From an uncultured Archangium sp. (GTDB lineage: Bacteria; Myxococcota; Myxococcia; Myxococcales; Myxococcaceae): 48,561 bases of DNA. This document shows positions 4,333-48,561 of the stretch, piece by piece. Position 1 is the first letter of the stretch. Every line of letters starts with the position of its first letter. Under the pieces are notes generated by a model that saw only the letters and a list, made by a program, of their open reading frames with translations, did not search any database and was not told where the DNA came from. A program made the translations under genes and the position numbers. Location of the stretch: NCBI GenBank assembly GCA_903905455.1, contig CAIVGN010000011.1, positions 1-48,561 of the forward strand, in the 5' to 3' direction.

Positions 4333-4342
4333 CGCGGCACGT

Positions 4343-4990: not shown

Positions 4991-5072
4991 CCATCGACGC
5001 TGGACGGTGGAGATCAGAGTGGACAGGGTGACACGGGCTGGTCGGCGAGGGCAACGACCGCGTCAGGCACCG

Positions 5073-5078
5073 TAGAGT
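5073..5078 (+). promoter_or_regulatory. -10 box TAGAGT, leaderless start for vanX-like gene
   Basis: TAGAGT lies 7 nt before the GTG at 5086, so transcription would begin at or very near that codon. No Shine-Dalgarno sequence is present. This favours GTG 5086 over the GTG at 5077, which overlaps the box. Confidence 0.5.
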
Positions 5079-5085
5079 GCGCCGC

Positions 5086-5999: not shown

Positions 6000-6050
6000 C
6001 GAAGGCGACGATCTTCCCGCGCGCGGCGGCCCGCATGCGAGCCTGCGCCC

Positions 6051-7226
6051 ATGAGTGACGAAGCAGATCTCCTCGCGGGTCACGGGCCGATCGAAACGGG
6101 CCGCGGCCTGGTGTCGAGCGCGGTGTCGTTCTCGCTCGCGTTGCTCTCGGTGCTCGGCGTGCTCGCGTTCCGGTTCCCCGCGTGGCTCTCGACGCCCGAA
6201 CTGCGCGCCCGCTACGACGTGACCACGCTGCGCTACGTGCTCTTCGCGGCGATGGTGATCGCCGGCGCGCTGGCCATTCGCAACCTGCTGCTGGGGCGGT
6301 ACCGCAAGCTGGCGACGGCCGCCTTCGGCTGGGTGGTGCTCGCGCAGGTGCTCGGAGGGCCCGCGGTGAAGGTCGGCGACCTCCCCGAGCACTCGCCGTA
6401 CATCGGGCTCGACTTCTTTGTGCTCGATCTCCTCGGCTCGTCGCTGATCTTCATCTTCATCGAGAAGCTGCGGCCGCTGCGCAAGGAGCAGCCCATCTTC
6501 CGCCCCGAGTGGCAGACCGACCTCGTTCACTTCCTGGTGAACCACCTCGTGGTGGGCCTGACGCTGCTGCTCACCAACCGCGTGGTGCATTCCCTGGGCT
6601 GGTTCGGGAACGAGTCGGTGCGCGCGCGCCTCGTCACCCTGCCCTTCCTGGTCTCGCTGTTCCTCGTCTTCCTCTGCGCGGACCTCGTGCAGTACTGGGC
6701 GCACCGCGCGTACCACGAGGTGTCCTGGCTCTGGCGCTTCCACGCGGTGCACCACAGCGCCAGGGACATGGACTGGCTGGCCGGCTCGCGGCAGTCGCTG
6801 TTCGAGCTGATCGGCACCCGCATCGCGGTGATGACGCCCATCTTCCTGCTCGGCTTTCCACGCGAGGTGATCGACGCGTACATCATCATGGTGGGCTTCC
6901 AGGCCGTGTTCGATCACGCCAACGTCAGCGCGGGCCTCGGACCGCTCAAGTACGTCTTCGTCACCCCGAACTTCCACCACTGGCACCACTCGCGCGACAC
7001 CGAGGCCATCGACAAGAACTACGCCGCGCACTTCGCGTTCCTCGACTACCTCTTCGGCACCGCGGCGAAGGCCGATCGCCCCTGGCCGGATCGCTACGGC
7101 GTGGTGGGCGACTACGTGCCCCGGGGCTTCGTGAAGCAACAGCTCTTCCCCTTCCTCGGGTCCACGGCGGATCAAGAGGCACAGCAGGGCGACCACCACA
7201 CCGCGGCCGGGAAGAAGAAGGAATGA
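6051..7226 (+). CDS. Sterol desaturase / fatty acid hydroxylase family protein
   Basis: A 391-aa integral-membrane di-iron enzyme of the fatty acid hydroxylase superfamily. The histidine boxes are HRAYH (218-222), HAVHH (231-235), a DHAN box near residue 285 and HHWHH (309-313). Four or more hydrophobic segments surround them: about 24-42, 63-80, 120-138, 162-182 and 200-218. Family members hydroxylate or desaturate lipid chains or sterols, using oxygen and an electron donor. The first 130 residues, with two or three extra membrane spans, exceed the core family domain. The tail is charged (TAAGKKKE). The stop overlaps the DUF309 start by ATGA. A GAGCCT box 6 nt before the ATG resembles the TAnnnT boxes of neighbouring genes. 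The exact lipid substrate cannot be told. Confidence 0.85.
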   Translation: MSDEADLLAGHGPIETGRGLVSSAVSFSLALLSVLGVLAFRFPAWLSTPELRARYDVTTLRYVLFAAMVIAGALAIRNLLLGRYRKLATAAFGWVVLAQVLGGPAVKVGDLPEHSPYIGLDFFVLDLLGSSLIFIFIEKLRPLRKEQPIFRPEWQTDLVHFLVNHLVVGLTLLLTNRVVHSLGWFGNESVRARLVTLPFLVSLFLVFLCADLVQYWAHRAYHEVSWLWRFHAVHHSARDMDWLAGSRQSLFELIGTRIAVMTPIFLLGFPREVIDAYIIMVGFQAVFDHANVSAGLGPLKYVFVTPNFHHWHHSRDTEAIDKNYAAHFAFLDYLFGTAAKADRPWPDRYGVVGDYVPRGFVKQQLFPFLGSTADQEAQQGDHHTAAGKKKE

Positions 7227-7573
7227 AGCCCGAGACCACCGACGCCCTGCGCGCGGGCCGGGCGCTCTTCAACGCACGGCAGTACTTCGAGGCCCACGAG
7301 GTGTGGGAGGTCGCCTGGCGACGCGAAGCGGGGGAGCCGCGCGTGCTCCTGCAGGCGTTGATCATGGTGGCCGCCGGCTGCCACAAGGCCACGGTGAACC
7401 AGCCCCGCGGCACGGTGAAGCTGCTCGTCGAGGCGGTGGACAAGCTGGCCCTCGTGCCCGGCCTCGAAGACTTCCGCGCGCAGGTGATGCAGGCGCTCGC
7501 CCACGCCGAGCGCTGGAACGCAGGTCAAGGCGAGGCGTTGGTCCCGACGCTGGTGCTCGCGCGCGACTTCTGA
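7223..7573 (+). CDS. DUF309 domain protein
   Basis: A 116-aa all-helical protein. Its N-terminal stretch FNARQYFEAHEVWEVAWR matches the DUF309 signature (F-N-x-x-x-F-x-E-A-H-E-x-W-E), followed by the second helix pair LLQALIMVAAGCHK. DUF309 proteins are small, cytoplasmic and widespread in cyanobacteria, Firmicutes and myxobacteria, with no established biochemical role. It is translationally coupled to the upstream hydroxylase through an ATGA overlap. The ORF converges on the LptC-like gene 19 bp away; no clear terminator hairpin is visible between them. Confidence 0.85.
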   Translation: MKPETTDALRAGRALFNARQYFEAHEVWEVAWRREAGEPRVLLQALIMVAAGCHKATVNQPRGTVKLLVEAVDKLALVPGLEDFRAQVMQALAHAERWNAGQGEALVPTLVLARDF

Positions 7574-7592
7574 GGTCCACCGCGCGAACGGG

Positions 7593-8231
7593 TCAGTCGA
7601 CCGAGCTGCTCTCGACCTGCTGACCTTCGGCCCCGCGCACGAAGCGCACCACGCCCCGCGCGCCTTCGCGGTCGCCCAGGGTGACGTGCCCCTGGGCCTC
7701 GGCCTCGGCTTGCGCTTCGCGGTACACGACCCGGTCCGCGACGAAGCGCATCGGCGCGCCCTTCGCCTCGACCACCGACGAGACCCGGGACAACTCGGCG
7801 ACCGCGCCGACCGGGTCCCACTGGAACGCCCGGCCCTCGTAGTGAACGAGCGGGCCTGCCTTCAGCGCGAAGGGCGCTGCGCTCGACACCCGGGCGTCGC
7901 GGCTGAACGTCACCTCGGAGCCCCAGAAGTGCCAGGGCCCGACGTCGGCCTCGACCACCCCCGTCGCGCGCGCCGACGTGGTGCGCTGATCGAACTCGAG
8001 TCGACCCGTGTGCAACGTGCCCTGTCTCGTCTGGAGCACGGCCCCGGTGGCCAACACCCGGTCGCCGGCGACGGTCATCTCGGTGGCGTCGAGCGTCAGC
8101 ACCACCTGGTCCTGCTGCCACACCCGCGTGTGAGCCCCGCGCAGGCGGAGCATCTCCCCGGGCCCCGCGGGCCGATCCTCCTGGACCACGCACGCCTGGA
8201 GCACCAGCGCGAGCCCCACGAGGCCACGCAT
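7593..8231 (-). CDS. LptC/OstA-like lipoprotein
   Basis: A 212-aa lipoprotein. The short signal peptide ends in L-V-L-Q-A-C-V, with the lipidated Cys at residue 14. The rest is a run of short beta strands with repeated patterns such as LTLDATEMTV, ATGAVLQTRQGTLHTGRLEF and FWGSEVTFSRD. This is the beta-jellyroll signature of the LptC/OstA family (LPS or lipid transport across the periplasm). Family assignment rests on pattern, not on a unique motif. The ATG at 8231 shares one base with the stop of the upstream Cys-rich lipoprotein (TGATG), so the two are coupled. It is not next to lptA or lptB, and the partner gene is unusual for LPS export. Confidence 0.6.
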   Translation of the reverse strand: MRGLVGLALVLQACVVQEDRPAGPGEMLRLRGAHTRVWQQDQVVLTLDATEMTVAGDRVLATGAVLQTRQGTLHTGRLEFDQRTTSARATGVVEADVGPWHFWGSEVTFSRDARVSSAAPFALKAGPLVHYEGRAFQWDPVGAVAELSRVSSVVEAKGAPMRFVADRVVYREAQAEAEAQGHVTLGDREGARGVVRFVRGAEGQQVESSSVD

Positions 8232-8821
8232 CAACGGGCGAACGCGGACTGACAGGCCGGGGTCAACGACCGCGCGAGCGTGCGGCAGACACTGGTGCGG
8301 CTGGTCCAGTCCTGGGACGTCGCCCGGGTGCACGGGGCCACGCGGCGGTAACAGTTCAAGATGATGTCCATCTGCGAACGATCGTCCGCCGCGCAGCTCG
8401 GAAGCCGCGCCCGGCACGCCCCTTCCGAGAGCAGCGCCGAAGGCACCGTGGCGTCGCTCACCTGGCAATCTCCGACGGCCGCCGCGTACTCGGCGAAGAG
8501 CTGGGGGAAGCCGGCACATGAATCACCGCTCGCGGCGCTCACCACCTGCCCGCCGTCGGGGCCCGTGGTGTAGGCCAGCGAGCCGCTGCCCACGCCCCCA
8601 CCCGTGCCGCCGTTCGCGTTGACGCAGGCGCCGACCACGCACTGCTGCGTCGAACCGCACGCGCTGCAGGCCAGCCCACTGTTGCCACAGGCGAGGGTGC
8701 TCGTGCCGCCCTCGCACTGCCCGGTCGCGCTCACGCAACCGGTGATGCAGGTGGGTGAACCCGCGCACGAGACGACGGCGGCCACGACGAGTACCAGGCT
8801 GGCGAGGAGGAGCTTTCGCAT
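8231..8821 (-). CDS. Cys-rich lipoprotein of unknown function
   Basis: A 196-aa protein with a lipoprotein signal peptide (MRKLLLASLVLVVAAVVSC; lipobox V-V-S-C). A compact cysteine-rich module spans residues 20-66 (C-ITG-C, C-EGGTSTLA-C, C-SA-C, C-VVGA-C), followed by a Gly-rich linker and a C-terminal domain with six more cysteines. The C-terminal domain has pairs spaced like C-AGFPQLFAEYAAAVGD-C, which suggests a disulfide-bonded helical bundle outside the cytoplasm. It is first in a two-gene unit with the LptC-like gene (TGATG overlap). A TACGAG sequence sits 6 nt before the ATG, a weaker version of the promoter box found elsewhere in the window. No function is recognised. Confidence 0.75.
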   Translation of the reverse strand: MRKLLLASLVLVVAAVVSCAGSPTCITGCVSATGQCEGGTSTLACGNSGLACSACGSTQQCVVGACVNANGGTGGGVGSGSLAYTTGPDGGQVVSAASGDSCAGFPQLFAEYAAAVGDCQVSDATVPSALLSEGACRARLPSCAADDRSQMDIILNCYRRVAPCTRATSQDWTSRTSVCRTLARSLTPACQSAFAR

Positions 8822-9012
8822 CGGCGCCTCGTACCTCAGTTTCGGCGCCGCGCAGGGTCACGTCTGCGGTCGACAGCGGCACTGAAGGGAGTCGGTCGGG
8901 CAGGACGCTCGGCCCTGGGTGCCCCTGCCCATCAGCATCGCGGCCCGGAGCGAGAGGTGACCGGGGCACTCGCCTTCGGAGCAGGAGACGCGGTGCCCGC
9001 GCGGTCCTGCGA

Positions 9013-9076
9013 GTGCGTCATCAAAATTGACAACCGCTCCGGCCATAACTTGTCGTTGTCAATTTTGATGACGCAC
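9013..9076. repeat. Perfect 22-bp inverted repeat with 20-nt spacer
   Basis: The left arm (9013-9034) begins GTGCGTCATC and the right arm (9055-9076) ends GATGACGCAC. The arms are exact reverse complements over 22 bp, separated by 20 nt. Their centres are AT-rich (TCAAAATTGACAA), which stands out strongly from the surrounding GC-rich DNA. No target-site duplication flanks it (GA on the left, CC on the right). It could be a dyad operator, a hairpin-forming RNA, or the relic of a small inverted-repeat mobile element. Confidence 0.85.
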
Positions 9077-9078
9077 CC

Positions 9079-9327
9079 ATGGAGCCTCAGGCCCCCCGCG
9101 CGCTGTCGCGACACCCCGGCGGGAAGGCCACGCCCCTGCGCCACGACGGCCTTGTCACCGAAGTGCCGCTCGCTGCGCGCACGACCCGGTGGAGCGTTCG
9201 CAACTGGTCCCCGGAACCCGTGACGGTGGTGGCGACTCAAATCGAGGCAACGGCGCTCGACGTACGCTCCACCAGGAGGCGCCGGACCGGCCGGACTCGC
9301 CGACCTTCGTCGCTGTGCCCCTGCTGA
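9079..9327 (+). CDS. Possible small ORF after the inverted repeat
   Basis: An 82-aa ORF starts with ATG 3 nt after the right arm of the inverted repeat. The first two thirds use G/C-ending codons and read like a plausible beta-rich segment (DGLVTEVPLAARTTRWSV). The last third is Arg-rich (STRRRRTGRTRR) and looks non-coding, so it may be the remnant of a longer frame-shifted gene. No Shine-Dalgarno sequence is present. It is equally likely that this is not a gene. Confidence 0.2.
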   Translation: MEPQAPRALSRHPGGKATPLRHDGLVTEVPLAARTTRWSVRNWSPEPVTVVATQIEATALDVRSTRRRRTGRTRRPSSLCPC

Positions 9328-9385
9328 AGCGCCCACAGCGAGGCCCGAGTGCCCCCCGGGTCATCTTGGCCACCGCGGCGAGAAG

Positions 9386-9413
9386 TTGAAGGAGCGCTAC
9401 GGACCTGTAGCCT
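9386..9413 (+). promoter_or_regulatory. Promoter of the J-domain gene
   Basis: TTGAAG (9386-9391) and TAGCCT (9408-9413) are separated by 16 nt, a good sigma-70-type arrangement. The TAGCCT box ends 10 nt before the ATG at 9424, leaving a leader of at most a few nucleotides. Confidence 0.55.
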
Positions 9414-9423
9414 GCGACGGCGT

Positions 9424-10329
9424 ATGAATGCGTGCGTGGCTCCTCACCATCTCGATCGCGCGCGGGCGGTACTGTTCGGCGCGCGACCGCCCAGCCTCGA
9501 CGAGCTCCGAAGCTCGTCGTGGAAGGACACGCTGCGCAAGGCGTTCCGCAAGCGCGCGTTCGAGACCCACCCGGATCGAGCGAACGCGTTGGGTCGCTCC
9601 GAGGCCACGCTCACCGTCGAGTTCCGCGAGCTGGAGCACGCCTACGAGCTGGTGACCGCGCACCTCTCGGCGCCGGTACCCGTGCCGGAGCCGCTCCAAC
9701 CTGCGCCGGCTCCCCGCGCGCGACCGTCGCGCTACGCGCCTCCTCCGGCATCACCACCCCGCGCGCGAGCGTCGCGTCGCGCGCCTCCACCTCCTCCTCC
9801 GGCATCACCGCCCCGTGCGCGGGCGTCGCGTCACGCGCCTCCTCCGGCGTCGCCTCCCCGCGCCCGGGCTGCCCGCCCCGCGGCCGACGCGGAGCTGTTC
9901 TTCAGGGGCCCGATGCCGCGCCGCGAGCTGCGCTTCGCCGAGTTCCTCTACTACTCGGGCGTCGTCTCCTGGCAGCAGCTCGTGGCCGCGATCACCTGGC
10001 AGCGGCAACACCGGCCGCGCGTCGGTGAGCTCGCCGTCGCGTGTGGATTGATGACGAAGCAGGAGGTCGCGCAGCTCCTCGGTCAGCGCCTCCGCAACCG
10101 GAGCCCGTCGGCCTTCGCCCAGTTTGCCGTCGACGAGGGGCGGATCTCGGCGGCGCAGCGCACGAGGCTCCTCTCGCAGCAGCGCTCGATGCAGCCGCGC
10201 ATCGGGCAGTACTTCGTGGTGCACGGCCTGATCAGCGCCGACCAGCTCGAGCACCTGCTCCACTGCGTCAAGCAGATGAACGCCGCGCTCGAGGTGAACG
10301 AAGCGAGCCGCGTGCGCGCCCGTCGCTGA
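9424..10329 (+). CDS. J-domain / Pro-rich linker / DUF chimeric protein
   Basis: This 301-aa protein has three parts. Residues 12-80 form a divergent DnaJ J-domain: helix II LRKAFRKRAFETHPD carries the HPD motif at 49-51, which in the family stimulates Hsp70 ATPase. Residues 85-155 are a low-complexity Pro/Arg/Ala linker made of three near-repeats of APPPASPPRARASR. Residues 165-295 form two related helical modules (LRFAEFLYYSGVVSWQQL; GVVS/GLMT/GRIS/GLIS turns every 35-40 residues) that resemble the N-terminal domain of GspE/MshE-type proteins. There is no signal peptide. It is likely a cytoplasmic co-chaperone-like adaptor that recruits DnaK to a target bound by the C-terminal domain (inference). 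Confidence 0.75.
   Translation: MNACVAPHHLDRARAVLFGARPPSLDELRSSSWKDTLRKAFRKRAFETHPDRANALGRSEATLTVEFRELEHAYELVTAHLSAPVPVPEPLQPAPAPRARPSRYAPPPASPPRARASRRAPPPPPPASPPRARASRHAPPPASPPRARAARPAADAELFFRGPMPRRELRFAEFLYYSGVVSWQQLVAAITWQRQHRPRVGELAVACGLMTKQEVAQLLGQRLRNRSPSAFAQFAVDEGRISAAQRTRLLSQQRSMQPRIGQYFVVHGLISADQLEHLLHCVKQMNAALEVNEASRVRARR
9715..9880 (+). repeat. Imperfect tandem repeats in the Pro-rich linker
   Basis: Three to four imperfect copies of a unit of about 45 bp code for A-P-P-P-A-S-P-P-R-A-R-A-S-R within the J-domain gene, with one copy expanded by additional prolines. Copies differ by a few bases, and all keep the frame. Confidence 0.7.
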
Positions 10330-37486: not shown

Positions 37487-38542
37487 ATGGGCTGCGACGT
37501 CGTCACCGGCGCCACCGGTCATCTGGGGAACGTCTTGATCCACGAGCTGCGTCGCCAGGGCCGCGAGGTCCGCGCCGTGATCCAGCCCGGGGATGACGGT
37601 GACGGTCTCGAAGGGCTGGACCTGCAGCGCGTCGAGGCCGACGTGCGCGACGTGGACGCCATGACCCGGGCCGTCACCGGCGCCGAGCGGGTGTTCCACC
37701 TCGCGGGCATCGTGAGCATCACCCGGGCCCAGCGCCAGCGCATGCACGACGTCAACGTGGGCGGCACGCGGGCGGTGCTCGCCGCCTGCCGCGCGCAGGG
37801 GGTGCAGCGCCTGGTGCACATGGGCTCGGTGCACGCGCTGACCGAGCCCGCGCACGGTGTGCTCGACGAGACGTCCGGCTTCGACCCGCGCCTCGCCGCG
37901 GGCCTGTACGGCAAGACGAAGGCCGAGGCCTGCGCCGAGGTGCAGCGGGCCGCCCGCGCGGGCGAGGTCGACGCGGTGCTGGTGCTGCCCACCGGCGTGG
38001 TGGGGCCCTTCGACGTGAGGCTCTCGGAAGTGGGGCAACTGTTGCTCGACCTCGAGGCCGGCAAGGTGCCCTTTCTCCTCGCCGGCGGCCACGACTGGGT
38101 CGACGTGCGCGACGTCGCCCGGGGCACGCTGCTCGCCGCCCAGCTGGGCCGCACCGGCGAGGCCTACCTCCTGGGCTCCGAGCGCCTGACCCTGCGCGAG
38201 CTGGCGACGGTGGTGCACGAGGAGACGGGCGCGCGGGTGCCCGCGGTGTTGCCCATGTGGCTGGCGACCACGCTCGCCGTGCCCGTTTCCTGGAGCGAGA
38301 CCTTCACCCGGCGGCGCGCGCTGTTGACGCCCTACGCGGTGCACGCGCTGAGCGTGCCCTTCACCGTCAGCCACGAGAAGGCCACCCGCGAGCTGGGCTT
38401 CTCGCCGGGGCCGGTGCGCCCGGCGCTGCGGGACGCCCTGCGCTGGCTCCACGAGAACGCCGCCGGGCGACGCGTGCCGGGCCCCGGGAGAACCCTGCGC
38501 CCCGCCGTCACTCCTCGACGCGCTGGAGCGTCGGCACCTTGA
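37487..38542 (+). CDS. NAD-dependent epimerase/dehydratase (SDR extended)
   Basis: A 351-aa extended short-chain dehydrogenase. The Rossmann motif is V-T-G-A-T-G-H-L-G (6-14). The catalytic YxxxK is Y-G-K-T-K at 141-145, with a preceding Ser in HMGSVHAL, and VLPTGVVGPFD matches the P-x-x-V-x-G-P substrate loop. The family uses NAD(P) on nucleotide sugars, flavonoid-like or other hydroxylated substrates. This subgroup with a VLPTGVVGP loop is often annotated as dihydroflavonol-4-reductase-like or sugar epimerase. The chosen ATG has an AGGAGGT RBS; an upstream GTG (37442) lacks one. The 3' end overlaps the converging M16 peptidase gene by 35 bp. Confidence 0.88.
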   Translation: MGCDVVTGATGHLGNVLIHELRRQGREVRAVIQPGDDGDGLEGLDLQRVEADVRDVDAMTRAVTGAERVFHLAGIVSITRAQRQRMHDVNVGGTRAVLAACRAQGVQRLVHMGSVHALTEPAHGVLDETSGFDPRLAAGLYGKTKAEACAEVQRAARAGEVDAVLVLPTGVVGPFDVRLSEVGQLLLDLEAGKVPFLLAGGHDWVDVRDVARGTLLAAQLGRTGEAYLLGSERLTLRELATVVHEETGARVPAVLPMWLATTLAVPVSWSETFTRRRALLTPYAVHALSVPFTVSHEKATRELGFSPGPVRPALRDALRWLHENAAGRRVPGPGRTLRPAVTPRRAGASAP

Positions 38543-39980
38543 GCGCGCCCAGGCCGTTGGCCTGCGCCGTGCCCTCGGCCGTCGCCTTCTCGCCCGAGAG
38601 AATCACCTGCACCGCGTCGCGGCTGGCCAGCAGCTTCGCCGCCGCCGCCACCTGAGAGAGAGTCACTGCGCGCAGCTCGGCGACCTCGGTGGTCGACGGC
38701 GCTCCTTGCGCGCGCACCACCGCCTGGCGCCACGCCTCGACGATGCCCTCGAGGTCGTCCTGCGCGGTCTCCCGCTCGGAGACCAACATCGCGCGCGCGT
38801 GCTCCAGCTCGTCGCTCGTCGGCGGGTTCGCCCCGAAGCTGGCGAAGGCCTCGAGCATCAGCCGGGTCGCGGTGGCCGTCTCCGTCGAGCGCACGCGGGT
38901 GCAGATGGACAGGGCCCGCGCCGCGCGCAGCTCGAAGACCTGGGTGTTCACCGAGTAGGTGAGGCCGAACTCCTCGCGCAGGGTGTTGCTGATGCGCAGC
39001 TCGCCGAGCACGTCGACCGCCAGCTGGGCTACCGCGGGCGTGCCCGGCACATCGGTCAGCGGGCGCGTGAGGCACACCAGCGTGTTGCGCGACGGCTTGC
39101 GCGGCAGGAACACCACGCCCCTGCGGCGGGTGACCTGTGGCGGCTTCACGAAGGCCTTCGCCGCGGGGGTGGCCTTCCAGTCCCCGAAGGATCGCTCGGC
39201 CCAGCGGAACACCTCGTCGCGCTGCACGTCGCCGGCCACCAGCAGCGTGGTGCCCACCGGGGTGAGGAGCTCGGCCTGCCGCTCGACGATCTCCTCCAGG
39301 CCGAGGCGCGAGAGGCTCGCCGCCGTGCCGTAGATGGACCGGGCGTAGGGGTGGTCCGCGCCGAAGGCGAGCTGCGCGAGGTACTGGCCGAGCACGGTGC
39401 CGTCGGTGAGTTCCATCTCGTTGAGGGCGTCCACGGCCGCCTGGCTGCGGTCCTGGAACGACTCGTCGCCGTGGCGCCGCTTCGTGCCCAGCGCGTCGAG
39501 CTCGCGCAGCACCGCGTCGGTGTCCCGCGCGTGAGCGTCGATGCCCAGCCAGGCCACGTCGGGCGCGACGTCGAAGCGCAGCCGCCAGCCCCGGGCCATC
39601 GACAGGTAGCGGGCCGACTTCTCCTGCATCACCACCGGGCGCCCGTCGGCGTCGTGGGCGTCGAAGCGGTCTCCCAGCAGCGCCAGCGCGAAGTACGTCG
39701 CCCCGGCGCGCTCGTCGGTCTCCGTCGCGCTGCCGTTGGAGAAGAAGAGCCGGGTGCGCACCAGCCGCGCGCGGTGGTCTTCCACCACCACCACCTTGAG
39801 CCCGTTGCGCAGCGTGCGCGTGGCCGCCTCGGGGCGGGTGCGGGGCAGCGGCTCGAGAGGCCCGGGCACCGGGGCCGGCACCCAGGTCACGGGCGGCGCC
39901 GCGACGACCTTCGCCGCGTCGGGCCAGGGCCCGGGGGTGGCACAGCCGGCGACGAGCCACAGCAGGGCGAGGCGCTTCAC
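38508..39980 (-). CDS. M16 peptidase-family lipoprotein without zinc motif (inactive partner)
   Basis: A 490-aa lipoprotein (MKRLALLWLVAGC, Cys at residue 13) with the two-lobe M16 fold: first lobe TLRNGLKVVVVEDHRARLVR, second lobe LRISNTLREEFGLTYSVN with the F-G-L-T-Y-S-V element of the substrate-closing lobe. The zinc motif HxxEH expected after the first strands is absent; the segment reads SATETDERAGATYFALAL. It should not be catalytic by itself. Its GTG overlaps the stop of the active M16 gene (GTGA). In other bacteria M16B pairs work as an active and an inactive subunit, and this gene fits the inactive one. Confidence 0.85.
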   Translation of the reverse strand: MKRLALLWLVAGCATPGPWPDAAKVVAAPPVTWVPAPVPGPLEPLPRTRPEAATRTLRNGLKVVVVEDHRARLVRTRLFFSNGSATETDERAGATYFALALLGDRFDAHDADGRPVVMQEKSARYLSMARGWRLRFDVAPDVAWLGIDAHARDTDAVLRELDALGTKRRHGDESFQDRSQAAVDALNEMELTDGTVLGQYLAQLAFGADHPYARSIYGTAASLSRLGLEEIVERQAELLTPVGTTLLVAGDVQRDEVFRWAERSFGDWKATPAAKAFVKPPQVTRRRGVVFLPRKPSRNTLVCLTRPLTDVPGTPAVAQLAVDVLGELRISNTLREEFGLTYSVNTQVFELRAARALSICTRVRSTETATATRLMLEAFASFGANPPTSDELEHARAMLVSERETAQDDLEGIVEAWRQAVVRAQGAPSTTEVAELRAVTLSQVAAAAKLLASRDAVQVILSGEKATAEGTAQANGLGALKVPTLQRVEE

Positions 39981-41323
39981 GGCGACACCTTGCGGGGCAG
40001 GGGCCGCGTGGGCCGCGAGAGCACCGTGACCCGCGTGCCGCGCAGCGCCGACCCGGTGATGGCCTGGATCCGGTCTGGCGTCAGCGCCCAGTGCCGCTCG
40101 GCCGCAGTGAGGTCGTGCAGCGGCTCGTGGGGCAGGCACTCCTGGAGCACCAGCATCGAGGCGAGGCCCTCGTTGGTGTGCAGCCGCGCCATCAACTCCC
40201 GGTCCCACGCCAGCAGCGTCGCGGCCACGATGTCCTTGGGCATCACCGCCCGCGAGAGGTAACGGAAGACGACCTCCGCGTTGCCCGAGGCCTCGAGCTT
40301 GTCGAGCGCGTGGGGCATGGTCACCTCGAGGGTGAACACCCCGCCCCCGGTGAACTCCAGGTACGAGGCGCTGACGTCCATGCCCACGAAGCCGTCGGTG
40401 TAGATGGTCAACAGCAGCGAGCCGAAGGCCAGCGCCTCCGAGACCTCCGTCATCGGGCCCGAGAGGGTCCAGGCCAGGGTCACCTTCGGGCGGCGGCCCA
40501 GCTCCTCGGTGACCGACACGCGCACGTCGGGGGCCTGGCCGGGCACCGCGAAGGGCTTGGTGTCCGCCTGGCCGGGGGGCAGCGCGCCGAAGGCCTTCTC
40601 CACCCACGCGCGGGCCACCACCTTGTCGAAGTTCCCGACCACCACCAGCACGCCGTTGGCCGGCACGAAGTGGGTGCGCGCGAAGCCGAGCACGTCGGCG
40701 ACGGTCAGCGCGTTGATCTCGTCACGCCCGCCGATGACCCCGCTGCGCAGCGGGTGCCCCTCGGGGAACAGCGAGCGCATCACCGCCACCGCGTTGCCGC
40801 CGTAGGGGCTGTCGTCGATGCGGTGCACCCGCTCCTGGGCCACGATGCGCTGGTGCCGGCGCAGGCCCGCCTCGGTCACCGTGGCGTACACCGAGCCAAG
40901 GCGATCGGCGTTGGCCCACAGCGCCAGCGGCAGCTCCTCCGGCGGCACGGTGACGCGGAAGCTGAGCCGGTCGAGGGTGGTGAAGGCGTTGAAGCCCGTG
41001 GCCCCACGGCGCTCGAGCAGCCCGCGGTAGTCCGTCTCGGGCGTGGGCCCGCTGCTGAAGACGTGCTCGGTGAGGTGCGCGAGGCCCGCCTTGCCCGCCG
41101 GCTGGTGCAGCGCGCCGGCGGCGAAGCTCAGGTCCACCAGCACCGCGTTGGTGCGCGGGTCGGGGCTGAGCAGCACCACCAGCCCGTTGGAGGTGACGAA
41201 GCGCTCGAACTGCGGCGTGAGGTCCGCCGCGCTCGACGCCCGGGGCACGACCTGGACCTCCTGCGCGCCCGCCGCCACCGCCACCACGCCGCACGTCACC
41301 ACCAACCACCGCGCCACCCGCAT
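39977..41323 (-). CDS. M16 zinc metallopeptidase (active subunit)
   Basis: A 448-aa exported M16 peptidase. The signal peptide is MRVARWLVVTCGVVAVAAGA. The inverted zinc motif H-L-T-E-H lies at 83-87 (H83, H87 ligands, E86 base), and the third ligand E164 (VAQER) follows 77 residues later, as the family requires. The second half contains VFTLEVTMPHALDKL and FRYLSRAVMPKD, the usual C-terminal lobe. It acts in the periplasm or is lipoprotein-partnered, and typically degrades short unfolded peptides. An AAGGGGG sequence precedes the ATG. It lies 89 bp downstream of the decahaem cytochrome gene on the same strand and may be part of that transcript. Confidence 0.9.
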   Translation of the reverse strand: MRVARWLVVTCGVVAVAAGAQEVQVVPRASSAADLTPQFERFVTSNGLVVLLSPDPRTNAVLVDLSFAAGALHQPAGKAGLAHLTEHVFSSGPTPETDYRGLLERRGATGFNAFTTLDRLSFRVTVPPEELPLALWANADRLGSVYATVTEAGLRRHQRIVAQERVHRIDDSPYGGNAVAVMRSLFPEGHPLRSGVIGGRDEINALTVADVLGFARTHFVPANGVLVVVGNFDKVVARAWVEKAFGALPPGQADTKPFAVPGQAPDVRVSVTEELGRRPKVTLAWTLSGPMTEVSEALAFGSLLLTIYTDGFVGMDVSASYLEFTGGGVFTLEVTMPHALDKLEASGNAEVVFRYLSRAVMPKDIVAATLLAWDRELMARLHTNEGLASMLVLQECLPHEPLHDLTAAERHWALTPDRIQAITGSALRGTRVTVLSRPTRPLPRKVSP

Positions 41324-41412
41324 CAAGGCCCCCTTCGATGGAAATCGACGGGTACCATGGCAAAGCCCCCCCACGCTTCCCAGCGCAGCGTGCGAAGGCC
41401 AGGCCGGGAGGC

Positions 41413-42942
41413 TCAGTACGTCTCGGGAGCGTGGTTCATGCCGTGGCAGCTCAACCGGCAGCTGCCCGTGCCCACCGTGCCTCCGGGGGCCCACGTGGGC
41501 TGCCCGGTGCCGCCGGCGCCCACGATGTTGGGCGAGAAGTTCACCCCGCGCGTGTAGGTGGCGTTGCCCGACCACGGCGCGCCGCGGGTGCCGTGGGTGT
41601 TGTAGTGGCACTCGCGGCAGATGGCGTTCCCCTGGCCCGCGCCGGCCACGCTGATGTCCTGGCCGCCGCTGCCCTTGCCGCTGATCGAGCGCAGGTGGAA
41701 GCCGTGGAAGCGGAACGCGGTGTCGGTGCGCGCCGTGGTGCCCGTCGTCCCGAAGGGGCCCGACGCGTGACACACGAGGCACAGGGTGAAGTCGTTGACC
41801 GTGTAGGCCTCGGCCTTGGGCTTCAGGTCCTTGCGGTAGGGCGCGCGCAGCATGGCGTTGGAGAAGGCCGCGTTGCCCCCCGAGGCGCTCGAGCCGTGCG
41901 GGCCCCTGGGCACCGCCCCGGTGTAGCCCGCGACCAGCGACACGGTGCGCGGGAGGTCGTCGTTGCTGTGACAGTCGGCGCAGGTCAGCACCGTGGTGGG
42001 CGAGAGGTGCGGCAGGCCCGTGCCGCCATCGAGGCTCCCGGCCATCTGCGCGCTGGTGTTCTTGCCCACGCCTTCCACCGGGTGCATCGACTCGTTGGCC
42101 GGGTTGAGCACGCGCGCGAGGTCGGTCTGGCCTGCGGGCGCCGTGGTCCAGGACGAGTGGCACTTGAAGCACAGCTCGTATTCCTTCACCGCCGTGGTGT
42201 CGGTGGCCGGCACCAGGGTGAACGAGGGCGCCGCGCCCGCCACGCCGTTGGTCACCCGCACCCGGCTGGTGCCCGTCAGCGGCCCCGCGGCCGTGCCGGC
42301 ATGGGGGTTGTGGCAGTCGACGCACTCGGCGTGGCGCTTGCCGGTGCCGAAGGCCGTCGCCGCGCTCTCGCCCACGAGGTGCACGCCGGTCACCGTGGCC
42401 ACCGGGTGCGCGGCGCGCTTGGCGAGCTCGGCGCTGATGTTCGTCGAAGCCGGGCCGGTGGCGTCGTGGCAGCCCAGGCACGCGGCTTCCTCGCGGAAGC
42501 GCTCGAGGTTGGAGATCAACCCCTGCGCGTCGCGGGCCCCGTGCGGGGTGTGGCAGTTGAGGCACTTGCCGGCGTCGGTCGCCGGGCGCGCCACCGGTGT
42601 GGGGCCCGGCCAGTACATGTTCGCCGAGGTGGCGTGGCTGCTCGACGCGTAGGCCGTCTGCCCCGCGTAGAACTGCCCCGCGCCCGTCGCCGCGTGGCAG
42701 GTGAAGCACAGGGTGTTGTTGTTCACCGTGAAGAGCACCGGTGAGCTGAGCACCGGCGTCTGCCGCTCGGGGTGGCACTGCAGGCAGTGGCCCCGGGGCA
42801 CGCCCGAGAGCCGGTTGACGCCGGCCGTGACGTTGCCGTGGGCGGTGAGGTGGAACACGAGGTCGCCTGCCCGGGCCGTCGTGGCCAGGGCGAGCACGGC
42901 CCCCAGGGCGCAGGTCTTCAGTACTGGTGGCAGGCGTTGCAT
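41413..42942 (-). CDS. Exported decahaem c-type cytochrome
   Basis: A 509-aa protein with a signal peptide (ALGAVLALATTARA). It contains nine CxxCH motifs (CLQCH, CFTCH, CLNCH, CLGCH, CVDCH, CFKCH, CADCH, CLVCH, CRECH) and one C-RLS-CH of CxxxCH type, so ten potential haem c sites. Many His residues lie between motifs (PHG, PHA, HPVA), fitting bis-His ligation. It is probably periplasmic or outer-membrane exposed and moves electrons. Its start overlaps the 3' end of the giant cytochrome gene by 25 bp, so the two are co-expressed. It may be the electron partner of that lipoprotein. Confidence 0.9.
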   Translation of the reverse strand: MQRLPPVLKTCALGAVLALATTARAGDLVFHLTAHGNVTAGVNRLSGVPRGHCLQCHPERQTPVLSSPVLFTVNNNTLCFTCHAATGAGQFYAGQTAYASSSHATSANMYWPGPTPVARPATDAGKCLNCHTPHGARDAQGLISNLERFREEAACLGCHDATGPASTNISAELAKRAAHPVATVTGVHLVGESAATAFGTGKRHAECVDCHNPHAGTAAGPLTGTSRVRVTNGVAGAAPSFTLVPATDTTAVKEYELCFKCHSSWTTAPAGQTDLARVLNPANESMHPVEGVGKNTSAQMAGSLDGGTGLPHLSPTTVLTCADCHSNDDLPRTVSLVAGYTGAVPRGPHGSSASGGNAAFSNAMLRAPYRKDLKPKAEAYTVNDFTLCLVCHASGPFGTTGTTARTDTAFRFHGFHLRSISGKGSGGQDISVAGAGQGNAICRECHYNTHGTRGAPWSGNATYTRGVNFSPNIVGAGGTGQPTWAPGGTVGTGSCRLSCHGMNHAPETY

Positions 42943-45900
42943 TCGAGGCTCACGTGATCAGGGCGGAAGGGGTGACCGTTCACCACCGCGGTTTGAGACT
43001 TGTGACAGGACACGCTGGTGCAGGTCTTCGTCGCCTGGTTGTAGCTGGCGGTGCCCAGGGACTGCGGCTTGCCCGCGGAGCTCACCGCGTCCACGGCGTC
43101 GAACACCACGTCGGGGCGGCCGTTGACGTGCTGCGCCCAGCCCACGATGGGTACCGGCCCGTAGGTCGACAACCCGCCGGTGCGCCCGGTGGCGTTGGCC
43201 GCGGTCACCGTCTGGTAGTGGCAGGTGCGGCACGGGAGCGGCGAGTCGTTGTGGTTGAAGGCGTGGCCGCTCTCGAGGCCCGAGGCGCCGAGCGACGAGT
43301 GGCTCTGGCCCACGCCGGCCTTCACCGCGGGGTCGGCGGTGCGCAGCGGCAGGCCGTGGCAGGCCCCGCAGCCCGTGCCCACCCCGCCCCAGGTCACCGG
43401 CTGGTAGGCCCGGCCCACGTCGAGCGCGAAGGTCGGGTAGGTGATGGGGTAGCCCGCGAAGCTGAAGTCGACGCCCGGCTGGGGCACCGCGCCCGGCGTG
43501 GAATACGAGGGGCCCGAGTGGCAGTACACGCTCGAGCAGGTGCCCTTGGTGTACTGGATGCCGCCGTCGTCGGTGAAGAGCGTCGCGCCCGGCGTGTACA
43601 CGGCCAGCGGCGAGCGCAGCTTGAGCGAGCCCGGGGGCGCGGTGGGGTTGTAGAGCTCGATCTCCGCGCGCCCGCCGTTCATGTGCTTGGCCGGGTCCAT
43701 GGGGTGGCAGTTGCCGCAGCCAAACGCGTAGCCCGTGGTGGAGTTGACCGAGGCCGCCGTCGAGAGGCTCCCGTAGGTCGGCGTGCCGTTGGCGCCCACG
43801 TGCAGCGCGTGGGTGCCAGTGGCCGGGGGCACGGCGTGGCAGGAGCCGCAGGTCACCTGCGCCTCGACCGTGCCGTTGATGTGCAGGTTCGGGTCGACGA
43901 AGGCGCGGGCCGCGTTCACCACCGCGCCGTGGCAGCTGGAGCACTGCGCGTTCTGCGGGTGCGGCGCCGGGGGCGGCAGGCCGTGGCAGGTGCCGCACTG
44001 CGCCTGGGTGCCGTTGACCGTGGTCCAGCTGGGCACGCGGTTGGTGCCGCCGTCCATCGTCTGGCCATGGCAGTAGTTGGCGCAGCTGGTGCCGTTCCAC
44101 GTCGGCAGGGCGCCGCGCGATTGGGCAGTGGAGCCGTAGTGCACCTCGGCCGGCGAGGGGTCGATGTGGCCCGGGTCGTCGCGCAGCGTGGGCACCACGT
44201 GGCAATCGTCGCAGGTGACCTCCGCGTGCCACCCCGAGACCCCGAGGTGCGAGCGGTGCGCGCCGACGGTGCGGGCCGACGTGGCGGTGTTGCCTTGCGT
44301 GTCCTTCGGGGGGGCCGAAGAGGTCGCGTCGCCGTGGCACGAGTTGCAGCCCACCGCGAGGTCGAGCACGCCGTCGATGTGCTTCTGGGGCTGGACGTGG
44401 ATGTCCAGGTGGCAGTTCGTGCACACCGGGTTCTGCGGGTGCGGCGCGGGGGGCGGGTTGCCGTGGCAGGTGCCGCAGGCCGCTTCACCGCCGTCGACCA
44501 CCGTCCACCGCGGGAGCACGTTGCTGCCGCCGTCGAGGGTCTGGCCGTGGCAGTAGTTCGAGCAGGTGGCGCCGCTCCACGAGGGCGCCGCGCCGTGGGC
44601 CGAGGCGATGGGCCCGAAGTTCAGCTCGGCCGGCGAGGTGTCGAGGTGGCCGGGATCGGACACGGCGCCGGGCACGGTGTGGCAGTCGGTGCACAACACC
44701 GGCGCGCGCCAGTTCGAGGCCTGGAGATGCGAGCGGTGCGCGCCGACGGTGCGGACCGTGGTCGCGGTGTTGCCCGCGGTGTCCGAAGGAGGCGCCGCGG
44801 AGGTGGCGTCGCCGTGGCACGAGGTGCAGGTGAGGCTGACCTGCAGCTGGCCGTCGACGTGCCGCTGCGGCTGCGCGGTGACGTCGTAGTGGCAGGTGGC
44901 GCAGTTGGCCTTCTGCGGGTGCGGCAGCGGCGGCGGCAGGCCGTGGCACGAGCCGCAGCTCGCCTGGCCACCGTCGACGGCCGTCCACGTGGGCGTGGCG
45001 TTGGTGCCGCCGCCCAGCGTCTGCCCGTGGCAGTAGGTGGCGCAGCTCACGCCGTCGAAGGTGGAGTTGACGTTGGCCGCGTTGGCCACCGCGTCGAAGG
45101 TGAGCTCCGCGGGGGTGGTGTCGACGTGCGCGAGGTCGCCGGTCACCGGCACCACGTGACACGAGGCGCACTGCATCGGCGCGCGCCAGGTCGAGGTCGC
45201 GAGGTGCTGCCGGTGCGCGCCCACGCCCACCGCGGTGGTCACGGTGTTGCCGCTGGTGTCCCGGGGCGGGGCCGACGAGGTCACGTCACCGTGGCATGAG
45301 CTGCAGCCCGTCTTCACGTCGAGCACGCCGTCGATGTGGCGCTGCGGCGTGAGGGTGATGTCGAGGTGGCAGGTGGCGCACTGCGCGTTCTGCGGGTGCG
45401 GCGCGGGCGGCGGGTTGCCGTGGCAGGTGCCGCACGCGGCCTGGGTGCCGTTGACCATGGTCCAGCTGGGCGTCTTGTTGCTGCCGCTGGGGAGCGTCTG
45501 GCCGTGGCAGTACGTGCCGCAGGTGGTGCCGTTGAAGCTCGAGGTGACGGCGCCCGCGTTGGCCACGCCGGTGAAGGTCAGCTCCGCCGGCGCAGGGTCG
45601 ATGTGGCCCGCCTGGCCGGTGGTGGTGGGCACCACGTGGCAGGTGACGCACTGGATTTCCGAGTGCCAGGCCGACGGCCCGAGGTGCGCGCGGTGGGCGC
45701 CGACGGTGCGCGCAGTGGTGGCGCTGTTGCCGGCCGTGTCCTTCGGGGGCGCGGACGAGAGCGCGTCGCCGTGGCACGAGCTGCAGGTGGTCGAGACGTC
45801 GAGCACGCCGTCGATGTGCTTCTGCGGCTGGGCGGTGATGTCGATGTGACAGGTGGCGCACTGCGCGTTCTGCGGGTGCGGGAGCGCCGGCGGGTTGCCG

Positions 45901-47066
45901 TGGCAGGTCCCGCAGGCCGCCTGGGTGCCGTCGACGGTGGTCCAGCTGGGGGTCTTGTTGGTGCCGCTGGCGAGCGTCTGCCCGTGACAATAGGTGCCGC
46001 AGCTCGTCCCGTTGAAGCTCGAGGTGACGGCGCCCGCGTTGGCCACGCCGGTGAAGAGGACCTCGGCAGGCGCGAGGTCGATGTGGCCCACGTCACCCAC
46101 GGTGGTGGGCACGGTGTGACAGGTCGCGCACGGCACCTCGGCGTGCCAGGTCGACGGCCCGAGGTGGCTGCGGTGCGCCCCGACGGTGCGGGCCGTGGTG
46201 GCGGTGTTGCCGGCCGTGTCCTGCGGGGGCGCGGCCGAGGTCGCGTCGCCGTGACACGACTTGCAGTCGGTGCGCACGTCGAGGGTGCCGTTGATGTGCC
46301 GCTCCGGCTCGGTGAAGACGTCGAGGTGGCAGGTCTCGCATTGGCCGTTCTGCGGGTGCGGCAGCGGCGGCGGCAGGCCGTGGCACTGGTAGCAGGTCAC
46401 CGAGCGCCCGGTGGTCCAGTCGGGCTGCCTGGTCGTGCCGCCCCCGAGCGTCTGCCCATGGCAGTAGGTGGTGCAGGTCGCGCCGTTGAAGTCCGAAGCG
46501 ACGTTGCCGGCGTTGGCCACCGCGCCGAAGGTCAGCTCCGCGGGCGACGGGTCGATGTGCCCGGGGTCCCCGACGGCCGTGGGCACGCGGTGACAGTCTT
46601 CGCACAGCAGCGTGCGGCGCCAGGTCGAGGCGCCCAGGTGCTTCTGGTGCGCGCCCACGGTGCGGGTGCTGCGCGCGGTGTTGCCCATGGTGTCTTGCGG
46701 AGGCGCGGCGTTGGCCATGCTCCCGTGACAGCTCGAGCAGGTGAAGAACCCGGCGTCGGGCTCGAACAACCCGGCGTCGGCCACGCCGGCGTCGACCTCG
46801 GGGAGCCCCGCGTCGAAGACCCCGGCGTCCAAGCCTGCGTCAGCGAGGCCCGCGTCGAAGCCCGCGTCGAACGGCCCGGCGTCCGGCAGCCCGGCGTCCA
46901 CCACCACCTCGGCGCCACCGTCACCCTGGCCCATGGCCGTGCCGCCGTCGTCGCCGACCTCGAGGCCCCCGTCTTCGGCGCCCACCGGGCCACCACAATT
47001 GCAACCCGACCATGCAGCCAGGATCAATGCGCCCAGCAAGCTCCGGGAGGTATTCGCGTGGCTCAT
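42918..47066 (-). CDS. Giant 37-haem lipoprotein cytochrome
   Basis: A 1382-aa lipoprotein (signal LLGALILAAWSGC). Residues 56-107 are a D-A-G-rich spacer. Residues 110-1066 are six repeats of about 160 residues. Each has five haem motifs in fixed order (CxxCH, CxxCH, CxxxCH with Y-C-H, CxxCH, CxxCH) plus conserved PPPLPHPQN and VGAHRSHLG elements. The last 315 residues carry seven more: five CxxCH and two CxxxxCH (CSSVYCH, CTSVSCH). Total 37 by my count: 29 CxxCH, 6 CxxxCH, 2 CxxxxCH. The GSu-type C-x4-CH repeat family occurs in Geobacter and Anaeromyxobacter and is linked to outer-surface electron transfer. A TTGACA element lies upstream. It overlaps the decahaem gene by 25 bp. Confidence 0.92.
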   Translation of the reverse strand: MSHANTSRSLLGALILAAWSGCNCGGPVGAEDGGLEVGDDGGTAMGQGDGGAEVVVDAGLPDAGPFDAGFDAGLADAGLDAGVFDAGLPEVDAGVADAGLFEPDAGFFTCSSCHGSMANAAPPQDTMGNTARSTRTVGAHQKHLGASTWRRTLLCEDCHRVPTAVGDPGHIDPSPAELTFGAVANAGNVASDFNGATCTTYCHGQTLGGGTTRQPDWTTGRSVTCYQCHGLPPPLPHPQNGQCETCHLDVFTEPERHINGTLDVRTDCKSCHGDATSAAPPQDTAGNTATTARTVGAHRSHLGPSTWHAEVPCATCHTVPTTVGDVGHIDLAPAEVLFTGVANAGAVTSSFNGTSCGTYCHGQTLASGTNKTPSWTTVDGTQAACGTCHGNPPALPHPQNAQCATCHIDITAQPQKHIDGVLDVSTTCSSCHGDALSSAPPKDTAGNSATTARTVGAHRAHLGPSAWHSEIQCVTCHVVPTTTGQAGHIDPAPAELTFTGVANAGAVTSSFNGTTCGTYCHGQTLPSGSNKTPSWTMVNGTQAACGTCHGNPPPAPHPQNAQCATCHLDITLTPQRHIDGVLDVKTGCSSCHGDVTSSAPPRDTSGNTVTTAVGVGAHRQHLATSTWRAPMQCASCHVVPVTGDLAHVDTTPAELTFDAVANAANVNSTFDGVSCATYCHGQTLGGGTNATPTWTAVDGGQASCGSCHGLPPPLPHPQKANCATCHYDVTAQPQRHVDGQLQVSLTCTSCHGDATSAAPPSDTAGNTATTVRTVGAHRSHLQASNWRAPVLCTDCHTVPGAVSDPGHLDTSPAELNFGPIASAHGAAPSWSGATCSNYCHGQTLDGGSNVLPRWTVVDGGEAACGTCHGNPPPAPHPQNPVCTNCHLDIHVQPQKHIDGVLDLAVGCNSCHGDATSSAPPKDTQGNTATSARTVGAHRSHLGVSGWHAEVTCDDCHVVPTLRDDPGHIDPSPAEVHYGSTAQSRGALPTWNGTSCANYCHGQTMDGGTNRVPSWTTVNGTQAQCGTCHGLPPPAPHPQNAQCSSCHGAVVNAARAFVDPNLHINGTVEAQVTCGSCHAVPPATGTHALHVGANGTPTYGSLSTAASVNSTTGYAFGCGNCHPMDPAKHMNGGRAEIELYNPTAPPGSLKLRSPLAVYTPGATLFTDDGGIQYTKGTCSSVYCHSGPSYSTPGAVPQPGVDFSFAGYPITYPTFALDVGRAYQPVTWGGVGTGCGACHGLPLRTADPAVKAGVGQSHSSLGASGLESGHAFNHNDSPLPCRTCHYQTVTAANATGRTGGLSTYGPVPIVGWAQHVNGRPDVVFDAVDAVSSAGKPQSLGTASYNQATKTCTSVSCHKSQTAVVNGHPFRPDHVSLECNACHQY
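43865..46739 (-). repeat. Six tandem repeats of about 480 bp, five haem motifs each
   Basis: The repeats begin at the CSSCH codons (46739 reading leftwards) and continue to about 43865. Each unit of 158-160 codons has the same motif order and conserved PxxxP-H-P-Q-N and VGAH segments. Copies diverge at many positions, which argues for old duplications under selection rather than a recent expansion. Confidence 0.85.
46745..46925 (-). repeat. D-A-G-rich spacer of the giant cytochrome
   Basis: Nine or more copies of a Asp-Ala-Gly motif with variable flanking residues (LPDAGPFDAGFDAGLADAG) form a flexible tether between the lipid anchor and the first haem module. Confidence 0.75.
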
Positions 47067-47091
47067 GCTGAAGTCGAACGCTATTAGAGGA

Positions 47092-47097
47092 TGTCAA
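47092..47097 (-). promoter_or_regulatory. TTGACA element upstream of the cytochrome operon
   Basis: A perfect TTGACA on the minus strand (47092-47097) lies 25 nt before the ATG at 47066, followed by TCTAATAG. An AT-rich patch stands out here. It may be a -35 element with a weak -10 (ACTTCA after 17 nt). A second reading, in which TCTAAT is the -10 of another promoter, is possible. Confidence 0.35.
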
Positions 47098-47192
47098 CGA
47101 CGGCAAGCCACAACACTCGAGTGTGGTGCGCCTCGGCGTCGGCCGTTGACCCCCCTCGCGCCCCATCGACCAGGCGCCTTCGCGGCTTTTTT

Positions 47193-47933
47193 TCAACGCA
47201 CAAAATGCGCGCGCACGGCCTCGGGCGTCACCGGCCCGAAGTGACCGACGAACACCAACTGCGCCGCCGGGGCGAGCTCCGTGAGGAGCTTCATCACCCC
47301 GCGCTGGTTGTCCTCGAGGTCGCACATGAAGAAGTGCGTCTCGGCGCTCGAGCCGACGATGCCGCCGCGCAGCAGGTCGCCCACCAGCACCACGTCACCC
47401 ACGGTCACCACCAGCGAGCCGCTGGTGTGCCCCGGCAGCAGCGTGGCCTTCGCGTCGATGCCGGTCAGCTCCTTCAAGTCGAGCGCGCCGTTGACCAGCA
47501 CGTCGGACGTCGAGCCGGTGTAGGTCGCGTCCTGGTCCTTGCGGGCGCGCAGGTTGGCGATGAGGCCGGTAGGGCACAGCTTCTCGTTGCGGCCCGCGGT
47601 GAACATGCCCTCGTCGCCCATGCCCACCACCACCGGCACCCCGAAGCGGGTGTGGAAGTAGCGCGCCCCGCCCGCGTGGTCCGCGTGGCCGTGGCTGACG
47701 ATGACCGCCTTCAACTTCGCCGGGTCGACGCCGGCCGCGCGCACGTCGGCTTCGAGCTGCGGCGCGTTCTTCTCGTAGCCGCTGTCGAAGAGGAACGCGT
47801 TCCCGTCCTGCATGACGAGGTGCACGTTGGTCGAGTCGTGGGCGAAGGTGCGGATCTCCAGGCCCCCGCGCACGAAGCGGGCCGGCGCCGAACACGCACA
47901 CAACGAGAGCACAGCGAACGCGAGCCACTTCAT
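47193..47933 (-). CDS. MBL-fold metallo-hydrolase lipoprotein
   Basis: A 246-aa protein with lipoprotein signal (MKWLAFAVLSLCAC, lipobox L-C-A-C). The metallo-beta-lactamase fold is clear: HGHADH (H-x-H-x-D-H) in VIVSHGHADHAGG, then PGHTSGS with the next zinc His, GDLLRGG with the bridging Asp, and GHFGPVTPEA with the last His. It is anchored outside the cytoplasm and hydrolyses an ester, phosphodiester, lactone or similar bond that cannot be deduced. The ATG overlaps the stop of the upstream Cys-rich gene (ATGA), so it is second in a transcript that begins outside the window. Confidence 0.9.
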   Translation of the reverse strand: MKWLAFAVLSLCACSAPARFVRGGLEIRTFAHDSTNVHLVMQDGNAFLFDSGYEKNAPQLEADVRAAGVDPAKLKAVIVSHGHADHAGGARYFHTRFGVPVVVGMGDEGMFTAGRNEKLCPTGLIANLRARKDQDATYTGSTSDVLVNGALDLKELTGIDAKATLLPGHTSGSLVVTVGDVVLVGDLLRGGIVGSSAETHFFMCDLEDNQRGVMKLLTELAPAAQLVFVGHFGPVTPEAVRAHFVR

Positions 47934-48561
47934 GGGAACTCCCCTGGTTCGAACGTCGCCACGGGGGTCGACGCGCTGCACGACAACTCCGAGAGCACCT
48001 GCTTCACGCGGCCCAGGGTGACGTCGGTGGCCACCGCCACGCAGGCGTCGGCGCAACCACCCGGGGGCCGCGGCTTCAGGCTGGGCCCGTCGAAGAACTC
48101 GACCGCGTCCGTTCGCACGCGCACCACCACCGCCGCCCGGCCGCACCCCCAGCGCTGCCGGGAATACGCCTGCGCCGCGAGGTGCGGGGCGTAGGGCGCG
48201 AGGTACGGCTGCGGGGCCCCGAACGCGCGCAGGTCGAACTGCTTCGCGGCGATGGCCAGGTCGGTGGCGGCCATGGCGGCGTCGAGCGGGTTGGAGATGG
48301 GCCGCGCGCACAGGGTCGGCTTCGGCGCCGGGAGCGCCGGGCAGTACGCGGCGAGGCACGCCTTCATCGCCTCCGGCGCGGGCTCCTTCGACGCGAGCGC
48401 CTTGCAGGCCGGGTCGACCAGGGTGCCGAGGCACGCCGACACCATGCCCGTGAACTCCGCGGCCGCGATGGACGGGCTGTGGGCCTGGGCCCCGTCGAGC
48501 ACGTCGATGGCCTTCCCGCACGCCACCGACTCTTCGAGGCGCACGCCCGCAGGCGCCTTCG
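47930..48561 (-). CDS. Cys-rich protein, N-terminus outside the window
   Basis: The reading frame is open from the right edge, and an in-frame GTG at 48544 reads into VRLEESVACGKAIDVLDGAQ, so this is probably an internal part of a longer protein. About 210 residues are visible, with ten cysteines (CLGTLVDPAC, CLAAYC, CADAC, SC) in pairs suggesting disulfides, and a C-terminal segment ACVAVATDVTLGRVKQVL. There is no known motif. It is translationally coupled to the MBL-fold lipoprotein (ATGA), which suggests that they share an envelope role. Confidence 0.7.
   Translation of the reverse strand, partial: KAPAGVRLEESVACGKAIDVLDGAQAHSPSIAAAEFTGMVSACLGTLVDPACKALASKEPAPEAMKACLAAYCPALPAPKPTLCARPISNPLDAAMAATDLAIAAKQFDLRAFGAPQPYLAPYAPHLAAQAYSRQRWGCGRAAVVVRVRTDAVEFFDGPSLKPRPPGGCADACVAVATDVTLGRVKQVLSELSCSASTPVATFEPGEFP

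Follow-up and report, generated by a model that had tools for sequence, protein, structure and literature searches.

The 48,561-nucleotide stretch analysed here (the window; contig CAIVGN010000011.1 of an uncultured Archangium sp.) contains a gene for a predicted lipoprotein cytochrome with 37 haem motifs, a gene that is real, well formed and a longer member of an already known kind. To judge from sequence comparisons, the product is a TIGR01904/Cytochrome_C7 multihaem lipoprotein, and the gene belongs, in lengthened form, to a conserved module of two genes, because six loci share the design, five of them have two repeats, and at all six the lipoprotein gene overlaps a gene for a decahaem cytochrome. 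We lean, with some confidence, to the reading of the protein as a multihaem c-type cytochrome of this family, anchored in the outer membrane, that relays or holds electrons along 37 mostly bis-histidine haems, with the decahaem protein as its partner.

Motif count and unit architecture

The original prediction, an earlier note on this DNA, had claimed 37 haem motifs, and our recount by computation gave exactly that number: 29 CxxCH, six CxxxCH and two CxxxxCH, with no motif of any other spacing. The motifs contain 74 of the protein's 76 cysteines; the other two, C22 and C24, are at the lipobox. When the protein was shuffled 2000 times, the mean was 0.76 motifs and the maximum 6. From its sequence, the mature apoprotein would weigh about 138.5 kDa, and the form loaded with 37 haems about 161.3 kDa, the lipid excluded.

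Bearing in mind that the source genome (G000, 8.6 Mb) is an assembly of 251 contigs, we considered that the repeat expansion might be an assembly error, an explanation that we now regard as extremely improbable. A separately assembled contig, CAISKJ010000598.1 (L059), agrees with the gene over 3111 bases except for 15 substitutions, has no insertions or deletions there, and carries an identical run of 31 consecutive motifs; since it was assembled independently and has the same units, the repeat number is not an artefact of one assembly. Furthermore, amino acid identity between units does not exceed 81%, and repeats so divergent would not simply be collapsed or inflated.

Downstream of the lipobox, a tether rich in Asp, Ala and Gly extends from C24 to the first motif at residue 110 (Table 1). 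It is followed by six repeats, R1 to R6 (158, 160, 160, 159, 160 and 166 residues), in each of which the spacers between the motif cysteines have the order 2-2-3-2-2. The last seven motifs have the order 2-2-4-2-2 and then 4-2; on alignment, the first five of these prove to be a seventh unit of the repeat type, in which loops carry long insertions, and 37 is therefore 7 x 5 + 2. Thus the six five-haem repeats described earlier stand, but the ‘seven-haem tail’ that was said to follow them is a diverged seventh unit plus two haems. A further property of the units is their histidine content: five motif histidines and five further ones are invariant in all 16 repeat units from the six loci, and the latter five match the need of five haems for bis-histidine ligation. 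In the tail unit, 12 histidines (those of the motifs included) are invariant at 6/6 loci.

TIGR01904 (NCBIfam; CxxxxCH/CxxCH domain c-type cytochrome) matches seven stretches of the protein with 215.7 bits against a cut-off of 27, and PF14522 (Pfam Cytochrome_C7) matches six stretches with 162.8 bits. As in TIGR01904 and PF09698, which are named for Geobacter, motif 3 is followed by CxxCH. The name TIGR01904 specifies CxxxxCH, whereas six of the seven units have a CxxxCH that is one residue shorter, a form also seen in relatives; the literal CxxxxCH followed by CxxCH occurs at two sites (residues 1177 and 1349). The sequence supports what had been proposed for this gene: a multihaem c-type cytochrome of tandem five-haem units, predicted to be a lipoprotein with an Asp-Ala-Gly tether.

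Table 1. Positions of the cytochrome genes, their parts and a related cluster; numbers refer to the window unless another locus is named
Feature	Position	Strand	Remarks
37-haem lipoprotein cytochrome gene	42918..47066	(-)	1382 amino acids, ATG start, stop included
Signal peptide to lipobox Cys22	47001..47066	(-)	AAWSGC; Trp at -3 atypical
Asp-Ala-Gly-rich low-complexity tether, ~85 amino acids	46740..46994	(-)	Similar tethers in five 17-haem orthologues
Unit R1, five haems 2-2-3-2-2	46284..46757	(-)	Groups with orthologue R1
Unit R2, extra unit	45804..46283	(-)	81% amino acid identity to R3
Unit R3, extra unit	45324..45803	(-)	
Unit R4, extra unit	44847..45323	(-)	
Unit R5, extra unit	44367..44846	(-)	
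Unit R6, counterpart of orthologue R2	43869..44366	(-)	66-75% identity; loop insertion of orthologue R2 shared
Diverged seventh five-haem unit 2-2-4-2-2	43041..43868	(-)	276 amino acids, long loops; 66-73% identity to five orthologue tails
C-terminal two-haem end, CxxxxCH + CxxCH	42921..43040	(-)	
Decahaem cytochrome gene	41413..42942	(-)	509 amino acids, nine CxxCH + one CxxxCH; conserved partner, without lipobox
Overlap of the two reading frames, 25 nucleotides	42918..42942	(-)	Equal length at all six loci
Porin-like protein with 12-haem and 15-haem lipoprotein-like cytochromes	L027 (G000:C72:66000-84000), 3332-10096		

A two-gene module that varies in length

When the C-terminal 310 residues were searched against 147 genomes of the class, 12 gave matches at an expectation value (E) of 1e-15 or better. 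The loci with a strong full-length match number six and come from five genomes (G000 twice, G003, G030, G141 and G144; we treated the G141 locus and JAEUJQ010000050 (L060) as one), and G076 has a more distant full-length match (44%). Five of the six strong loci encode 17-haem proteins with two repeats, one of them being a second, shorter form in the source genome itself (contig C45); only the window gene has six repeats. The 17-haem pairs, all from genomes of the same family, resemble the window pair in signal peptide, tether, R1, last repeat, tail and decahaem partner, and differ from it in having two repeats rather than six.

The partner is equally well conserved. At 6/6 loci the two genes share 25 nucleotides at the start of the decahaem gene, and the decahaem proteins, which are 66-81% identical, have the motif order 2222222223, so that the tenth motif is CxxxCH in every one. 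They share 15 invariant non-motif histidines for 10 haems; the window's protein, which has an ordinary signal peptide, scores above cut-off for PF09699 and PF22113. In a 60-genome panel, decahaem matches at E <1e-200 occur only in G000, G003 and G030, which are the panel genomes with a 17- or 37-haem lipoprotein; at 1e-20, five of the 60 genomes match in all, the remaining two weakly. The genes scanned around these pairs are of unlike kinds, and the module therefore consists of the two cytochromes: beside the window gene we found M16 peptidase domains and a metallo-beta-lactamase-fold protein, and at the four other 17-haem loci and C45 a kinase, a response regulator, a steroid reductase-like protein, an acetyltransferase, a hydrolase, or frames of no family.

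In a tree of the 16 units, the R1 units of window and orthologues cluster (support 100/99), as do window R6 and orthologue R2 (99/98). R2-R4 are grouped together (91/88), R5 adjoins the orthologue R2 group (98/93), and R2-R5 branch outside that group. This pattern fits growth by addition of units between fixed end units, and it supports a recent simple duplication for R2/R3 only; an old expansion followed by loss in the 17-haem lines, or a faster change of the inner units, is possible. The window gene and its orthologues show that large multihaem lipoproteins can gain or lack entire five-haem units while their ends are conserved. We offer more tentatively the proposal that the protein is a modular single-polypeptide haem wire, the length of which evolves by five-haem steps between fixed ends and which is translationally coupled to a dedicated decahaem partner. 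If that were true, the 17-haem and 37-haem forms of one genome would provide a natural length series for the scaling of conductance or capacity.

Haem number among relatives

A count of 37 is by itself unremarkable. It had been placed at the high end for one polypeptide, a judgement that does not survive comparison with relatives of the same order, in which single frames have 94, 62, 61, 58, 51, 48 and 48 motifs (one of the 48s ends at a contig end). The largest, at L061 (G050:C28, 5369-17074, (-) strand), is an uninterrupted 3902-codon frame with a lipobox-like start (LVQGC); its locus has no unknown bases, and adjoining frames have 33 and 48 motifs. Within the open-access literature, to which our statements on the largest haem number are limited, values of 40 to 112 are reported: 40 in Anaeromyxobacter dehalogenans (PMC2330069), a maximum of 45 in a 2010 survey and 85 in Agromonas oligotrophica (both PMC5566968), 86 in an anaerobic methanotrophic (ANME) archaeon (PMC9012536) and 112 in an acidobacterial genome (PMC11495043).

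The giant cytochromes of another family of the same order, which we label f5 (frames with 27-94 motifs), have tandem 2-2-4/3-2-2 units like those of the 37-haem protein, and TIGR01904 matches both giants scanned. They differ from it in having up to 94 motifs per frame, mostly CxxxxCH, and their tail matches are weaker than the ones obtained for the f1 orthologues. The window gene places the 37-haem type of electron-transfer module in a myxobacterial family other than f5. We also observed that L063, L064, L067 and other f5 giants use, or switch within one protein to, seven-haem units (2-2-4-2-2-2-2).

Motif spacing and haem maturation

The mixture of three spacings had been thought to require flexible cytochrome maturation. 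That requirement is not supported in the sense of anything special: the spacings swap at one and the same position in orthologues, both of the unusual ones can take haem in a characterized protein, and the maturation machinery of the source genome is ordinary; hence no special maturation is implied. The swap is seen, for example, at one orthologous tail position that is CxxxxCH at three loci and CxxxCH at three. More broadly, CxxxCH and CxxxxCH number 42 and 32 in the window's family, 31 and 121 in f5, and 2 and 15 elsewhere. Every noncanonical motif was counted in frames of 10 or more haems at 48 loci, decahaem partners included, to the exclusion of L001-L025, L059 and loci retrieved for different reasons; we set the family labels manually.

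The characterized protein is MmcA of Methanosarcina acetivorans, in which, according to the mass spectrometry reported in PMC11024163, CxxxCH and CxxxxCH peptides both have a 615-Da haem adduct. MmcA mixes CxxCH, CxxxCH and CxxxxCH as the 37-haem protein does, and all of its motifs carry haem. We liken the two by this mixture and not by homology: MmcA has seven haems, is matured by an archaeal Ccm and is not described there as a lipoprotein. The source genome has one ordinary System I locus (contig C115), which encodes CcmB, a CcmC-like protein, CcmE, CcmF, a CcmG-like thioredoxin and CcmH. We rejected a System II (ResB) reading, as the sole ResB match is inside the CcmF frame.

Membrane location and a related porin-like cluster

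In Myxococcus xanthus, a tendency towards Lys at +2 is reported for inner-membrane lipoproteins, and towards Ala at +7 for those of the extracellular matrix (PMC3222651). Read by eye, the +2 residue of the 37-haem protein is Asn and its +7 residue Val, and neither mark appears in any of the five orthologues. Because these inner-membrane and matrix marks are missing, the outer membrane is by default the likeliest site, and a plausible one. Set beside the lipobox criterion that we used (L-[AST]-[GA]-C), the window protein has WSGC, and the orthologues LAGC, AAGC, LHGC, LGSC or AGAC.

Five-haem units also occur in apparent porin-cytochrome clusters. On contig C72 of the source genome, a 15-haem protein built of such units comes after a 12-haem cytochrome and a protein of 452 residues (counted from the likely Met) that has no family match, and which we read as porin-like from its signal peptide, its long strand-like stretches and its want of a helix-rich domain; a NapC/NirT-type cytochrome and a 23-haem cytochrome are encoded on the other strand. 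A gene for this porin-like protein was found in 10/60 genomes, and in 10/10 the contig that carries it also has a match to the window protein nearby (in G054, at C1:4243217-4244059), from which we draw the occurrence of the units in such clusters. The C72 cluster may be a porin-cytochrome conduit of the 37-haem protein's family. In that respect it recalls Pcc/Mtr conduits, from which the window module differs in that no porin was found.

Proposed role and alternatives

On our preferred reading, the 37-haem lipoprotein would be exported by Sec, lipidated at Cys22 and loaded with haem by the cell's System I Ccm machinery, to yield a tethered rod or string of beads: seven five-haem units and two haems. 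Electrons would be relayed or held along the chain of mostly bis-histidine haems. The protein would work with the decahaem cytochrome encoded directly downstream, electrons passing between the two partners and perhaps to an extracellular acceptor. The four extra units, which lie after unit 1 and before the final ordinary repeat and would share ancestry with an R2-type unit, would make the chain about twice as long as in the 17-haem form. In favour of this reading we count the motifs that leave no stray cysteine, the family matches, the invariant histidines, the conserved decahaem gene and its co-occurrence with the lipoprotein, the Ccm locus, the N-terminal residues, and the C72 cluster with its porin-like gene.

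Several observations weigh against this proposal. The Trp at -3 of the lipobox is unusual. In the PDB, a sequence search with the 37-haem protein gave no match up to E 1, and a profile search with a two-unit alignment gave non-significant matches only; within these limits there is no sequence relation to the solved chains of OmcS/OmcE/OmcZ-type polymeric nanowires. (The best PDB match of the decahaem protein has an E of 0.09.) AlphaFold2 produced no usable model, the predicted local distance difference test (pLDDT) being 29.7 for two units with a 6-row alignment and 32.9 for one unit with 8 rows. No porin family was found among the scanned neighbours of the window gene or of the scanned orthologues, so the co-encoded porin that serves as the criterion for Pcc/Mtr conduits is lacking there; PF11854 (MtrB) is absent from the source genome, which is weak evidence, since only 1/14 control genomes was positive. 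The porin-like gene has no match in G003, although the two-gene module is present: no connection to the cell exterior is evident in that genome, and the module is therefore independent of that gene. Finally, the flanking genes scanned differ between orthologue loci.

Alternatively, the lipoprotein may hang from the outer membrane into the periplasm, as a wire that passes electrons to the soluble decahaem protein or to a separate conduit. This alternative differs from our preferred reading only in the side of the membrane, and the confidence that we place in the two overlaps; taken alone, it is a serious possibility that we nevertheless would not favour. It draws on the missing matrix-type Ala at +7, on the decahaem partner's ordinary signal peptide and want of a lipobox, and on the separate porin-like cluster in the same genome. 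The long Asp-Ala-Gly tether, on the other hand, is spacer-like, and sequence cannot tell sidedness.

We think it unlikely that the protein is an electron store, a capacitor whose many low-potential haems, on the periplasmic or outer face, would buffer electrons during scarcity of the acceptor, length being capacity and not a directed long-distance wire. The distinct, conserved first and last units and the overlapping decahaem gene suggest defined end contacts, although adding like units would raise capacity without a defined end, the module has no porin that we could find, and storage has been raised for large cytochromes in PMC2330069 and PMC11495043. The 17-haem and 37-haem proteins of one genome would offer a natural comparison of wire with capacitor.

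Other features of the window

An Rfam scan of positions 40000-48561 gave no matches. Directly downstream of the cytochrome pair are two M16 peptidase-like frames (38508-41350, (-) strand); none was seen beside the other orthologue pairs scanned.

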